The notes beneath the pieces were generated by a model. That model searched no databases. It worked only from the letters and a program-made list of their open reading frames with translations, and had not been told where the DNA came from. Positions 1,231 through 17,678 of a stretch of 29,065 bases of DNA are shown one piece after another; the first letter of the stretch is position 1; every line of letters starts with the position of its first letter. The translations under genes were made by a program, and so were the position numbers. Location of the stretch: the IMG/VR virus record IMGVR_UViG_3300032224_000094, positions 1 to 29,065 of that record; one strand, written 5' to 3'. The stretch is from a virus.

Positions 1231-1404
1231 GTGTATATACAGATCACTGAGGCGGCTAAAAGGCTAGATTTGTCCAGAACATGGACATATAAATTAATTG
1301 CAGAGGGAAAAATCCACACGATCCGTATGGGCGGCTACCATTTCGTGATTGATGATAAGGATTTTAAAAGGCTCGTTAAAGAGAGAAAAAAGGGGGCAAA
1401 GTGA
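1231..1404 (+). CDS. small helix-turn-helix DNA-binding protein (excisionase-like fold), 57 aa
   Basis: Starts at GTG 1231 with AAGGGG six bases upstream and encodes a 57-residue protein. Residues 5-29 (ITEAAKRLDLSRTWTYKLIA and following) form the winged-helix/HTH_17 pattern seen in phage excisionase-like and MerR-like regulators: Thr-Glu-Ala-Ala, a turn after DLS, and a recognition helix around YKLIAEGKI. The sequence RMGGYHFVIDDKDF is the usual wing, and the tail is Lys/Arg-rich. No integrase is visible here, so a regulator of the following genes or of the divergent promoter is more likely than a true excisionase. Its TGA overlaps the methyltransferase GTG (GTGA) and touches ATG 1405. Confidence 0.7.
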   Translation: MYIQITEAAKRLDLSRTWTYKLIAEGKIHTIRMGGYHFVIDDKDFKRLVKERKKGAK

Positions 1405-2312
1405 ATGAGTTGGCTCTTTTCGCAGGCGCTGGTGGAGGAATACTCGGAGGACATTTGCTTGGATGGCGAACAGTCTGTGCAGTTGAATGGGAACAATACC
1501 CAGCAAGCGTATTGTGCGCCAGACAAAATGACGGGATTCTCCCGACTTTCCCGATTTGGGATGACATACAAACCTTTGACGGAAAACCGTGGCGAGGAAT
1601 TGTTGACGTTGTATCTGGCGGATTTCCCTGCCAAGACATCAGTGCAGCGGGGGGGGGGGCGGGAATCGAAGGCGAGCGAAGCGGAATGTGGCGAGAAATG
1701 GCGCGGGTGGTTGACGAAGTTCGACCAAAATACGTCTTTGTGGAAAACAGCCCAATGCTCACTTCTAGGGGACTCGGAACAGTTCTTGGAGACTTGGCCA
1801 CGATGGGGTTTGATGCGAAATGGGGAGTGTTATCAGCGGCAGACGTTGGCGCACCTCACAGGCGTGATCGAATGTGGATTCTCGCCAGACAACGTGACAA
1901 CATTTCACACACCGATGACAACTGGCTTAGATGGGGGCAGCAATGGGCGCAAAGCATTGAAAAAGAAGCAAGAAATAATACCGACTCCTACCAGTTCGGT
2001 GGGCGGAGCAAATCACAACAGCCCATCCACACTAGCAGGCAAACGATGGGCAATGAATCTATCGGGTTATGCACAGAAATATCCGACACCGACAGCACAC
2101 AATGCCAAAGAAACAAATGCACCGAGCGAAGCACTGAGAAACGAACCATCATTGGCAAGCATTGCTGGTGGGAAATTGAACCCAACGTGGGTCGAGTGGC
2201 TGATGGGGTGGCCGCTAGGATGGACAGACTTAAAGCAATTGGAAATGGGCAAGTATCACTCGTGGCTTCAACAGCATGGAAAATCTTAGGAGGAAATAAT
2301 GATGTCAGATAA
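1401..2312 (+). CDS. DNA cytosine-5 methyltransferase (Dcm-like, solitary)
   Basis: Transfers a methyl group from S-adenosylmethionine to cytosine C5, probably protecting phage DNA from host restriction; no restriction enzyme is nearby. C5-methyltransferase motifs appear in order: motif I LFAGAGGGILGG (6-17), motif IV GGFPCQDIS with catalytic Cys77, motif VI VFVENSPM (112-119), motif VIII GAPHRRDRMW (150-159) and motif X LKAIGNGQV (277-285). At 303 aa it is short, with only about 100 residues between motifs VIII and X for target recognition. GTG 1401 is the only upstream start: an in-frame stop lies at 1377 and motif I begins at residue 6. The frame is shadowed throughout by a second ORF in the +1 frame. 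An 11-G tract encodes residues 83-87 (AGGGA). Confidence 0.9.
   Translation: MNELALFAGAGGGILGGHLLGWRTVCAVEWEQYPASVLCARQNDGILPTFPIWDDIQTFDGKPWRGIVDVVSGGFPCQDISAAGGGAGIEGERSGMWREMARVVDEVRPKYVFVENSPMLTSRGLGTVLGDLATMGFDAKWGVLSAADVGAPHRRDRMWILARQRDNISHTDDNWLRWGQQWAQSIEKEARNNTDSYQFGGRSKSQQPIHTSRQTMGNESIGLCTEISDTDSTQCQRNKCTERSTEKRTIIGKHCWWEIEPNVGRVADGVAARMDRLKAIGNGQVSLVASTAWKILGGNNDVR
1405..2289 (+). CDS. 294-aa ORF overprinted on the methyltransferase gene (+1 frame)
   Basis: Nested entirely within the methyltransferase gene, this frame is open for 294 codons from ATG 1405 to TAG 2289. The shared AGGGGG (1391-1396) lies 8 bases before this ATG but only 4 before the methyltransferase GTG. The protein looks real rather than random: MSWLFSQALVEEYSEDICLD at the start, FSRLSRFGMTYKPLT near residue 46, PRWGLMRNGECYQRQT in the middle, PTP-containing spacers, and LNPTWVEWLMGWPLGWTDLK near the end. 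I recall the Trp-rich terminal motif and similar N-termini from phage proteins of unknown function next to or within cytosine methyltransferases; I could not verify this. Function is unknown. The alternative is an accidental open frame, which the length and motifs make less likely. Confidence 0.6.
   Translation: MSWLFSQALVEEYSEDICLDGEQSVQLNGNNTQQAYCAPDKMTGFSRLSRFGMTYKPLTENRGEELLTLYLADFPAKTSVQRGGGRESKASEAECGEKWRGWLTKFDQNTSLWKTAQCSLLGDSEQFLETWPRWGLMRNGECYQRQTLAHLTGVIECGFSPDNVTTFHTPMTTGLDGGSNGRKALKKKQEIIPTPTSSVGGANHNSPSTLAGKRWAMNLSGYAQKYPTPTAHNAKETNAPSEALRNEPSLASIAGGKLNPTWVEWLMGWPLGWTDLKQLEMGKYHSWLQQHGKS
1649..1659 (+). repeat. 11-G homopolymer within both overlapping frames
   Basis: Eleven consecutive G residues interrupt otherwise mixed sequence. 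In the methyltransferase frame they encode part of AAGGGAG between motif IV and the GERSGMW segment; in the +1 frame they encode RGGGR. Motifs on both sides are in register in each frame, so the length of 11 keeps both proteins intact. The tract is long enough to invite replication or transcription slippage. Confidence 0.9.
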
Positions 2313-4404
2313 CGTAGTTGAGCTGCACCCAAAAATAATACTAGACTCAGCGCTCAAATACGCAAGTCAGGGATACCGTATTCTGCCACTGCATAGCATC
2401 AAGGGCGGCATATGCACGTGTGGCAATCAGTCGTGCAAGTCACCAGGCAAGCACCCATTAACTCAACGTGGGGCTAATGAGGCATCCAGTGACGAGATAC
2501 AGATTAAGGGTTGGTGGTCACAGTGGCCAACAGCCAATATTGGTATTGCGATGGGCGATCACGGCACAATTGCGCTTGATGTCGATACTCGCAATAACGG
2601 CCATCTCACCTGGGAGTCAATACTGCAAGCCAATGGGCAGTTACCTGAGACTGCCACACAGCGCACAGGCAATGGCTGGCATTATTTATTTGTGATTGAT
2701 GAGAAGCTCATGCCTAAGATAAAGGGCAAGTTAGGGCAGGGGATAGATGTTAAGGCTAATGGTTATATTGTGGCAGAACCGAGTATCCACCATTCAGGGC
2801 GCAGATACTCATGGGATGATGGATTAGACCTGCTGCAAGGGTTTAATCCGAGTCGTGCGCCAGTATGGTTAGAGCAGATGCTATGTGATAGTGCGACCAG
2901 TGCGCCTAGCACTGCGAGTCTGGGCAATATTACTCTGCCGGTGCAGCTTACTGAGGCGGCATCGGCGCTTGAGCATTTAGACGCAAATGATTATAACCAG
3001 TGGATCGAGGCTGGCATGGCGCTACATGCCACAGGTCTTGGCGATCTGGCATACCAGGTCTGGGTTGATTGGTCAGTTGAATCGCCTAAATTCGACCATA
3101 AAGACCAGAGGCGCAGGTGGATGTCGTTTCGCACAGATAAGGGCGGCGTGTCGATAAAGACCATATTTGCTCGCGCTCAGGCGGTCGGGTGGGTAAATCC
3201 ACTGTCGGTAAAGCAGAGCCAGGAGGAGAAATTGACACCAGATCAGCATCCATTTGCAAATTACCTGCCATATGCACTTGGCAAATTAGAACCAGATGAG
3301 TTTATTTTTGACGATATATTAATTGCAGGCGTGACGTTATTGGCTGGGTTTACTGGCATTGGTAAAACTACAGCGCTTGTGCCATTAATGGCCAGAGCAG
3401 CGCATTTATGCTCAGATGCAGAAAATATACGTCCAATATTGCGGCGCAAGGTAATTTATGTCAGTGAGGACCCTAAACAGGTGGTTAGAGTTTTAACGTC
3501 AATGCGGATCGCTGGGCATTTAACCGCAAGTGACCAAGAATTAGCAGAGTGGTTTAAGATTGTGCCTGCCAAGCGTATGGATGCGGAATCCATAGTTAAG
3601 GTGCGCGAGGCTTATGAAAAGCTCAGTCATCGCAATATTGATCCAATAAGCGGTATTTATCACGACACCAAACCGGTTGTTGTTTTGGATACATCTAATG
3701 CTACCATTGAGTTAGAAAATGAGTCAGATAATAGCGAAGTGGGTAAGGCGGTCGCTACATTAAAGAGCGAGCTGGGCGGCATTCCGTTAATTATTGTGGC
3801 GCATTTGGCTAAAACTCTTAAGAAAGCAGATATATCCGATATGACAAGTCGGGGGGCAGGCGCTTGGGAAGGTGACGTAAACCAGGTTCTTTATATGACT
3901 AAAGAGGATGACGGGGCGCGGTGGCTTGATGTATCGCAAGCCAAGCACAGATTTGTGGCCGTAGCCGATGGAATTGTATTTAGGTCTTATAATACGGAAA
4001 TTAAGGGTAAAGATTTATTAGGGCGGGATAAAAATGTATTTATGATGCACTGCCAGCCAGAGATGATTGAGAAAGGCGGCAGGAAAGCTATGCAGGATGC
4101 CTCAAAACGGGCAGCAGAGCAGAGCAAGGCAAATGCCGAGCAGATTATACGATCAGCCAAAAGAAATAGCGTATTGTCAATATTAGGCGGGTTGCGTGGT
4201 GATGAGTATAAAACCAAGAACGAGGTATCCGATGAGCTTGGCGGGCATAAGCGGCATAATTTTGATTTAATTGACGAGATGTTGAATGCCGGTGATATTG
4301 AGCTGTTTACGCCCATTAGTAAGCGGGCTAGGCAGCATGTTAATGGTTACCGATTGGCGGGTAGTGGCGCTAGAAGTTATCAGGCTAATAGTAATGGCGA
4401 ATAA
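2299..4404 (+). CDS. bifunctional primase-polymerase / RepA-like helicase ATPase
   Basis: A 701-aa replication protein. Residues 15-195 are a PrimPol (AEP) domain: Cys residues 39, 41 and 46 followed by SPGKHP form the usual zinc-binding insertion, ALDVD at 92-96 gives the catalytic DxD, and GNGWHYLF at 124-131 gives the conserved His. Residues 222-300 resemble a PriCT-type linker (ALEHLDANDYNQWIEAGMAL). Residues 335-560 are a RepA/AAA_25-type hexameric ATPase with Walker A GFTGIGKTT (350-358), Walker B VVVLDTSNA (460-468) and sensor-like IIVAHLAK (498-505). The C-terminus resembles a winged helix. The start has AGGAGG (2288-2293) five bases before ATG and overlaps the methyltransferase end by 14 bases. 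It should prime and unwind DNA, probably acting at the repeat cluster just downstream. Confidence 0.9.
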   Translation: MMSDNVVELHPKIILDSALKYASQGYRILPLHSIKGGICTCGNQSCKSPGKHPLTQRGANEASSDEIQIKGWWSQWPTANIGIAMGDHGTIALDVDTRNNGHLTWESILQANGQLPETATQRTGNGWHYLFVIDEKLMPKIKGKLGQGIDVKANGYIVAEPSIHHSGRRYSWDDGLDLLQGFNPSRAPVWLEQMLCDSATSAPSTASLGNITLPVQLTEAASALEHLDANDYNQWIEAGMALHATGLGDLAYQVWVDWSVESPKFDHKDQRRRWMSFRTDKGGVSIKTIFARAQAVGWVNPLSVKQSQEEKLTPDQHPFANYLPYALGKLEPDEFIFDDILIAGVTLLAGFTGIGKTTALVPLMARAAHLCSDAENIRPILRRKVIYVSEDPKQVVRVLTSMRIAGHLTASDQELAEWFKIVPAKRMDAESIVKVREAYEKLSHRNIDPISGIYHDTKPVVVLDTSNATIELENESDNSEVGKAVATLKSELGGIPLIIVAHLAKTLKKADISDMTSRGAGAWEGDVNQVLYMTKEDDGARWLDVSQAKHRFVAVADGIVFRSYNTEIKGKDLLGRDKNVFMMHCQPEMIEKGGRKAMQDASKRAAEQSKANAEQIIRSAKRNSVLSILGGLRGDEYKTKNEVSDELGGHKRHNFDLIDEMLNAGDIELFTPISKRARQHVNGYRLAGSGARSYQANSNGE

Positions 4405-16376: not shown

Positions 16377-17678
16377 ATGGACATAGAAATCATCTGCAAT
16401 ACTGATGACGCGGAATTATTTGGCAATATTCGATTAAATTCTCGTAGTTGTCAGAAATGGATTAAAGAATTGCCAGCGCATGACGGTCACGCAGTGATTG
16501 TTGGCGGCGGTCCATCTGTTGCAGATTATCTACCAATTATTGAAAAGCGGCGCAAATTAGGGCAAAAGATATTTGCACTTAATGGCGCGGCTAAGTTCTT
16601 GAATCGTCACGGCATTGTGCCTGACTATCAAATTATACTTGACGCACGACCAGGTAATGTTGATTTGATTGGCGATGCTAAAGAATATTTATTCTCAAGC
16701 CAGTGTCACCCATCATTGTTTAATGACGAAGATAATATTACTACATGGCATCCAGCGATGGATAATATGGAAGATCACCTGCCAAATCACGATCAGGAAT
16801 ACGCCTTAATCGGCGGTGGCACGACTGTTGGGCTATCAAGCATGTGTCTTGCGTACACAATGGGCTATCGCAAGCTGCACCTATTTGGCTATGATTGTTC
16901 GCACAGACATACAATGGGACATGCGTATAAGCAGCCAATGAATGACAGCGATGTATTAGTTAAAGTTACTGTTGATGGAAAAGTGTTTACCAGCTCGCTT
17001 ACAATGGCCAGGCAAGCTGAGTTATTTCCTACTGTATGCAATAACCTAATTGATTTAGGTTGCATCATTACCGTTGACGCTACTGGATTAATTATGGAGG
17101 TTGTGCGAAAAATGCGCGAGCGCCCAGATTTAATGCCAGAGCAAGAAAAATATCAAAAGATGTGGGATATACCTGCGTATCGTAATATGTCACCAGGTGA
17201 ATTAATTGCTGATTATTTTGTAGAATTAGCTAAAATAGACTGCAATGATAAAGTAATTGATTTTGGCTGCGGCACTGGTCGCGGTAGCAAGCGCATACAC
17301 GAATTAGCAAAATGCAATATTCAGATGGTTGATTTCTCTGATAATTGCTTAGATAAAGATATTAAATTTAAATTAACTGTTGCAGATTTAACGCAGCCTA
17401 TTGATTTAAAAGCAGATGTTGGTTATTGCACAGATGTAATGGAACATATACCGACAGACGATGTTGATGCAGTTATTAAAAATATTATGCAGTGTGTTGA
17501 TCGCGCATTCTTTCAGATTAGTTTATTGCCAGATCATATGGGGCAATTAATTGGTCAGCATTTGCATGTTTCAGTATTTCCATATGAATGGTGGGCAAGC
17601 AAGTTCTGTGATTATAAATTGATATTCTCAAGTCATAACACAGAAAATGCAATTTTCTACGTTAAAAAGGAGAAGTAA
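16377..17678 (+). CDS. DUF115/MptE-like domain fused to SAM-dependent methyltransferase, 433 aa
   Basis: Two enzymes in one chain. Residues 37-190 resemble the DUF115/MptE-like family: HAVIVGGGPSVAD (38-50), KIFALNGAAKFLNRHGIVPD (64-83), ALIGGGTTVGLSS (143-155) and LHLFGYDCS (167-175). The family includes pterin kinase-like and glycosyl/pseudaminic-acid-transfer-like proteins. Residues 270-430 are a class I methyltransferase: motif I VIDFGCGTGRGS (293-304), VDFSDN (318-323) and CTDVMEHIP (351-359). The substrate is unknown; virion or host-surface glycan modification is inference from the capsid-module position. The second half is AT-rich with ATT/TTA codons. Initiation probably depends on the upstream hairpin. 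Confidence 0.75.
   Translation: MDIEIICNTDDAELFGNIRLNSRSCQKWIKELPAHDGHAVIVGGGPSVADYLPIIEKRRKLGQKIFALNGAAKFLNRHGIVPDYQIILDARPGNVDLIGDAKEYLFSSQCHPSLFNDEDNITTWHPAMDNMEDHLPNHDQEYALIGGGTTVGLSSMCLAYTMGYRKLHLFGYDCSHRHTMGHAYKQPMNDSDVLVKVTVDGKVFTSSLTMARQAELFPTVCNNLIDLGCIITVDATGLIMEVVRKMRERPDLMPEQEKYQKMWDIPAYRNMSPGELIADYFVELAKIDCNDKVIDFGCGTGRGSKRIHELAKCNIQMVDFSDNCLDKDIKFKLTVADLTQPIDLKADVGYCTDVMEHIPTDDVDAVIKNIMQCVDRAFFQISLLPDHMGQLIGQHLHVSVFPYEWWASKFCDYKLIFSSHNTENAIFYVKKEK

Follow-up and report, generated by a model that had tools for sequence, protein, structure and literature searches.

A gene nested in the +1 frame of a phage C5 cytosine methyltransferase gene is probably the target-recognition half of the enzyme

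C5 methyltransferases recognise DNA through a variable target-recognition domain (TRD), which is followed by motif IX. In the M.EcoHK31I system the small gene is reportedly nested within the large gene in a different frame, and the EcoHK31I beta chain is said to be about 176 aa long; the M.AquI genes are consecutive, not nested. As summarised in PMC3404938 from Lee, Kam and Shaw 1995, the larger chain of M.EcoHK31I (YGGCCR) carries motifs I-VIII and X, and the smaller chain motif IX. M.AquI consists of two chains that form one enzyme, the small chain holding half of the variable region together with motifs IX-X (PMC3404938). A literature search for nested methyltransferase genes found only this EcoHK31I/AquI line. 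Temperate phages of Bacillus encode multispecific C5 methyltransferases with several TRDs in a row, which are thought to be protective against many restriction systems (PMC12707154).

We analysed a virus record of 29,065 bases over its full length (the window), in which a C5 methyltransferase gene (alpha) contains a second open reading frame (beta) in its +1 frame. The beta ORF lies wholly inside the alpha ORF and spans 294 of its 303 codons. The remainder of the record is tailed-phage-like, with a terminase, a portal, a major head protein and an amidase, and a second methyltransferase-like protein (phrog_24759) is encoded among the structural genes at 16377-17678. The features of the locus are as follows.

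1231-1404, plus strand: small excisionase/HTH-like ORF (phrog_66), whose TGA stop overlaps the alpha GTG and abuts the beta ATG
1381-1407, plus strand: shared translation start region, with a G-rich Shine-Dalgarno-like run, the alpha GTG (1401), a TGA (1402-1404) and the beta ATG (1405)
1401-2312, plus strand: alpha chain, C5 cytosine methyltransferase, 303 aa, GTG start, with motifs I-VIII and X and without motif IX
1405-2289, plus strand: putative beta chain, nested +1-frame gene, 294 aa, ATG start (phrog_1008)
1413-1439, plus strand: alpha motif I (ALFAGAGGG), from the alpha alignment
1617-1637, plus strand: alpha motif IV, catalytic GGFPCQD, from the alpha alignment
1743-1754, plus strand: alpha motif VI (ENSP), from the alpha alignment
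1854-1883, plus strand: alpha motif VIII (PHRRDRMWIL), from the alpha alignment
1885-2160, plus strand: alpha linker, stop-free and neutral in the alpha frame, from the alpha alignment and selection statistics
1903-1977, plus strand: beta module M0 (FHTPMTTGLDGGSNGRKALKKKQEI), from module clustering
1978-2079, plus strand: beta PTP module 2 (IPTPTSSVGGANHNSPSTLAGKRWAMNLSGYAQK), from module clustering
2080-2175, plus strand: beta PTP module 3, cluster M1 (YPTPTAHNAKETNAPSEALRNEPSLASIAGGK), from module clustering
2176-2223, plus strand: beta motif-IX-like sequence (LNPTWVEWLMGWPLGW), from pattern and position and an M.HhaI probe
2226-2264, plus strand: alpha motif X (RLKAIGNGQVSLV), from alignment and selection, directly downstream of the beta motif-IX-like sequence in the DNA

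Alpha was readily assigned (PF00145, 9.8e-33; phrog_363, 1.8e-68), and its alignment shows motifs I, IV (PCQ), VI (ENV/ENS), VIII and X in order. Beta matched phrog_1008 (2.1e-29) and otherwise only a few smaller PHROGs, whose "DNA methyltransferase" label is an annotation and not a test. Beta belongs to no family in Pfam, NCBIfam, PADLOC or the PDB: searches of the PDB with beta and with a beta profile found nothing, and a Pfam scan of 92 betas gave only noise. Both ORFs, together with the +1-frame motifs FSRLSRFGMT, PRWGLMRNG and LNPTWVEWLMGWPLGW, are exactly as a first reading of the sequence had described them.

Like M.EcoHK31I, the locus combines an alpha chain bearing motifs I-VIII and X with a second gene nested in another frame. 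Unlike in M.EcoHK31I, beta here spans nearly all of alpha and has a modular variable region, no restriction partner was seen at this locus, and selection places the probable TRD in beta, whereas that of M.EcoHK31I was predicted in the large chain (PMC3404938). As in M.AquI, the catalytic motifs and the motif-IX-like sequence are on separate chains, but motif X is on alpha, whereas in M.AquI it accompanies motif IX on the small chain. The multispecific enzymes of Bacillus phages share with this locus the presence of serial modules in a phage methyltransferase, although those enzymes are single chains with TRDs in the catalytic frame and the modules here are on the other chain and frame. By the described division of motifs, rather than by comparison with EcoHK31I sequences, the locus is most likely a variant of the M.EcoHK31I-type split methyltransferase.

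A search of viral contigs with beta returned at least 598 relatives, and both frames are open at full length in nearly all of the best 80 of these (49-61% beta identity). The nested arrangement is not unique to this phage and is common to hundreds of viral contigs. When 80 loci were fetched by alpha alone, to remove choice by beta, the +1 frame was free of internal stops in 78, while the other two, apparently copies of one sequence, share a stop at codon 33; permutation of synonymous codons with the alpha protein kept predicts 3-8 +1 stops per gene. In the window, the alpha segment holds two +1 stops versus 7.3 expected by codon permutation, one being the TGA that immediately precedes the beta ATG and the other the terminal stop of beta itself. 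Among 12 representatives with mutual nucleotide identity below 80%, no internal +1 stop was observed versus 65 expected. A GC effect was considered as the cause of the open +1 frame and rejected: the alpha genes have 46-59% GC, yet 11-28 stops in the +2 frame.

Single-base differences between independent locus pairs were then classed by their effect on each frame. With an assumed transition weight of 2 and pairs drawn from environmental contigs, the +1 frame gave a dNN/dNS of 0.13 (0.11-0.15) and a dSN/dSS of 0.29, compared with 2.9 and 0.95 in the +2 control frame, and with 2.2 and 1.5 in the +1 frame of flanking genes from the same locus pairs (a small set of 17 gene pairs). Synonymous changes that create a +1 stop numbered 0 in the methyltransferase versus 37 in the flanking controls. 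An MM1-type gene, used as an additional control, showed no constraint on either flank of its nested ORF. These sequence statistics indicate that the same DNA carries two genuine coding frames and that beta is a real gene.

Constraint was also resolved by region, in a beta-based alignment of 72 pairs. Alpha is constrained over motifs I-VIII (dNN/dSN 0.02-0.11) and again at motif X, and is neutral at 1885-2160 (dNN/dSN 1.07 and 2.05; dNS/dSS 1.6 and 1.4); in a 47-sequence alignment, no conserved residue was found in alpha between motif VIII and WW..EP. Beta is moderately constrained over alpha motifs I-VIII, with its codons 1-150 under selection, and shows its strongest constraint at 1885-2240 (dNN/dNS 0.05-0.09). 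Its last ~15 codons (2240-2290) appear free by dSN/dSS (2.05), dNN/dNS being imprecise there. Beta is most constrained exactly where alpha is neutral, in the interval from motif VIII to motif X. The earlier note had proposed two genuine coding frames, a +1 ORF whose length is conserved across divergent phages and purifying selection in both frames; many stops in the +1 frame of homologous methyltransferases would have spoken against it. Its expectations were borne out (0 internal +1 stops versus 65 expected; dNN/dNS of 0.13 versus 2.2 in flanking controls; 78 of 80 alpha-selected loci open and only two with an internal stop; selection in both frames from the frame-wise substitution classes), and its impression that +1 codons 200-294 are at least as protein-like as alpha agrees with constraint on beta and not on alpha there.

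The start region provides a further line of evidence. The beta ATG is 4 nt after the alpha GTG, behind a purine-rich run, and the start context xTGAATGAGTTGGCTC is conserved. In seven loci (L004, L014, L027, L032, L052, L072 and L081) the beta N-terminus M[SAT]WL[IM]S is formed anew ~27 nt farther upstream, with the pattern "MSWL.S.AL" in this subclass; these loci have a different alpha N-terminal extension, and the upstream beta start is encoded by new sequence. Since the beta start is re-created over a different alpha peptide, the beta N-terminus is selected independently of alpha. Reinitiation at the stop of the excisionase-like ORF could feed both the alpha and the beta starts.

Motif IX was absent from alpha in the 47-sequence alignment. 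The beta sequence LNPTWVEWLMGWPLGW resembles the C5 motif IX of M.HhaI, RKLTPRECARVMGYPDSYK (PDB), and only 2 nt separate it from alpha motif X in the DNA. The best window for an M.HhaI motif IX probe was this LMG site in 85 of 92 betas and in none of 47 alphas, while an MM1 motif IX probe found the site in only 21 of the 92 betas. The site has an invariant E, and LMGW in A2. Profile-profile comparison of beta with single-chain methyltransferases by HHalign was not significant. By pattern and position, we consider the end of beta likely to be motif IX. The last PTPT in the window beta is 29-31 residues before this site. Single-chain enzymes have a "TL" consensus motif, with P(STCA)PT, at a distance of 10-50 residues ahead of motif IX (PMC2413257), and the comparison of the two spacings offers a lead.

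Ahead of the putative motif IX, betas carry a row of one to five segments of 25-50 residues, each opening with a PTP-like motif. With module boundaries set by a simple pattern, 101 betas yielded 21 recurring module clusters, arranged in over 50 different orders. In 441 of 534 pairs whose backbones are 90-99.5% identical, one or more modules are unrelated; between the window and locus L090, for example, the backbone is 98% identical and all modules after the first differ. The PTP modules are therefore serial and exchangeable between betas. Exchange of this kind is typical for specificity domains and suggests that the PTP modules are cassettes for target recognition, lying in a different frame from the catalytic chain.

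We propose, with a probability of roughly 0.83, that the two frames together encode a single C5 cytosine methyltransferase of two chains, in which beta is the target-recognition subunit. Alpha has neither a TRD nor motif IX, and beta appears to provide the two in matching DNA order, so beta would be half of the enzyme. Alpha (frame 0) would supply motifs I-VIII, the core for AdoMet binding and catalysis, as well as motif X at its C-terminus; the stretch of alpha between VIII and X would serve no purpose except to remain open. Beta (+1) would supply the target-recognition region and motif IX, placed in the DNA as in a single-chain enzyme. Both chains would be translated from neighbouring starts on one mRNA and assembled into the active enzyme, the interchangeable PTP modules would set the methylated sequence or sequences, and the phage may in this way pre-methylate its own DNA against host restriction. 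Several findings count against this proposal, namely nonsense codons in the alpha of several relatives with an intact beta, the TRD predicted in the larger subunit of M.EcoHK31I (PMC3404938), unlike its placement in beta, the non-significant profile-profile comparison and the low yield of the MM1 motif IX probe. AlphaFold2 models, too, were poor both for beta alone (92 sequences; pLDDT 52, pTM 0.20) and for alpha (47 sequences; 54.9). It also seems fairly probable, at lower confidence, that beta is a trans-acting specificity subunit with a role like that of HsdS in type I systems, its cassettes shuffled between phages and readable in two frames, and that part of the catalytic chain only hosts the other frame.

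Related arrangements were found beyond the viral contigs. A genome scan with beta patterns returned 80 loci from bacteria, among them Proteobacteria and Verrucomicrobia. Alpha has a nonsense codon with beta intact in L192, L216, L220 and L241 (conserved parts) and in L197, L240, L031 and L068 (linker); these interrupted alphas are possibly decaying prophages, or alpha may work in pieces. In Paenibacillus phage Diva, gp50 lies in gp49 and is annotated "g49 internal gene" (L087:2636-3340 and 2452-3504); like beta, it ends in a motif-IX-like sequence, LNPDWVECLMGFPIGWTD, and has PTP-like modules, and from its sequence it looks like a beta chain. Streptococcus phage MM1 has an ORF annotated "C5 methyltransferase beta subunit" inside its methyltransferase gene (L170:1499-1924 inside 1348-2505). 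Unlike at the present locus, the MM1 alpha keeps its own motif IX, and the nested ORF is short and without motif IX. This MM1-type nested +1 ORF (codons ~48-190; L170 and L252-L330) is stop-free in 70 of 74 genes, with 6.3 stops expected in each, and its dNN/dNS is 0.36 inside versus 1.6 downstream. Against the beta profile it scores a median of 24 bits versus 6 for codon-shuffled genes, with overlapping maxima. An older overprinted segment may predate the alpha/beta split.

The earlier note had suggested that the +1 protein may be a partner modulating methylation or acting against host defence; the data point instead to beta as the half of the enzyme with the TRD and motif IX. We nevertheless considered that beta is a real but separate protein, a regulator or counter-defence factor that overprints the methyltransferase without being its subunit. 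Its N-terminal half resembles no known domain, no profile match to methyltransferase small domains was significant, and a constrained nested +1 ORF, lacking motif IX, is likewise present in single-chain enzymes of the MM1 type. However, the TRD and motif IX missing in alpha appear to be supplied by beta at the matching place, beta was never found without alpha (all 80 bacterial loci found by beta alone have alpha in the -1 frame), and M.EcoHK31I provides a precedent; we regard a separate protein as improbable.

Programmed ribosomal frameshifting, by which one chain would run from alpha motifs I-VIII into the beta TRD and motif IX and on to motif X, the beta ATG being incidental, appears less probable still. 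The DNA order of motifs I-VIII, TRD, IX and X is indeed that of a single-chain enzyme, but two shifts would be needed, inspection of the junctions revealed no slippery site, the beta start and N-terminus are conserved and re-created upstream, and beta codons 1-150 are under selection. A run of about ten G (1649-1661) was rejected as a slippery site, being in the alpha frame on both sides and not conserved in relatives, which encode AGKGAG there. The run may stem from slippage or from an error in sequencing, but neither frame is interrupted by it. That the +1 ORF is an untranslated by-product, held open by alpha conservation and codon bias, is hardly credible: alpha homology does force some +1 similarity (the median score of codon-shuffled MM1-type genes against the beta profile is 6 bits), but it is contradicted by codon permutation, by the selection statistics and their same-locus controls, by the peak of constraint in the neutral interval of alpha and by the re-creation of the beta N-terminus.

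The locus provides a clear natural example of two overlapping genes, both of full length, with constraint passing from one to the other along the sequence. The protein sequence of the alpha linker is apparently retained only because its DNA is used in another frame. With beta as the probable target-recognition subunit, the shuffled modules make the link from module to methylated motif directly testable. Annotation treats hundreds of phage and prophage methyltransferases as complete single genes while their specificity half is apparently hidden in the other frame, and such methyltransferases, when predicted, cloned or tested without beta, would be inactive or misread enzymes.
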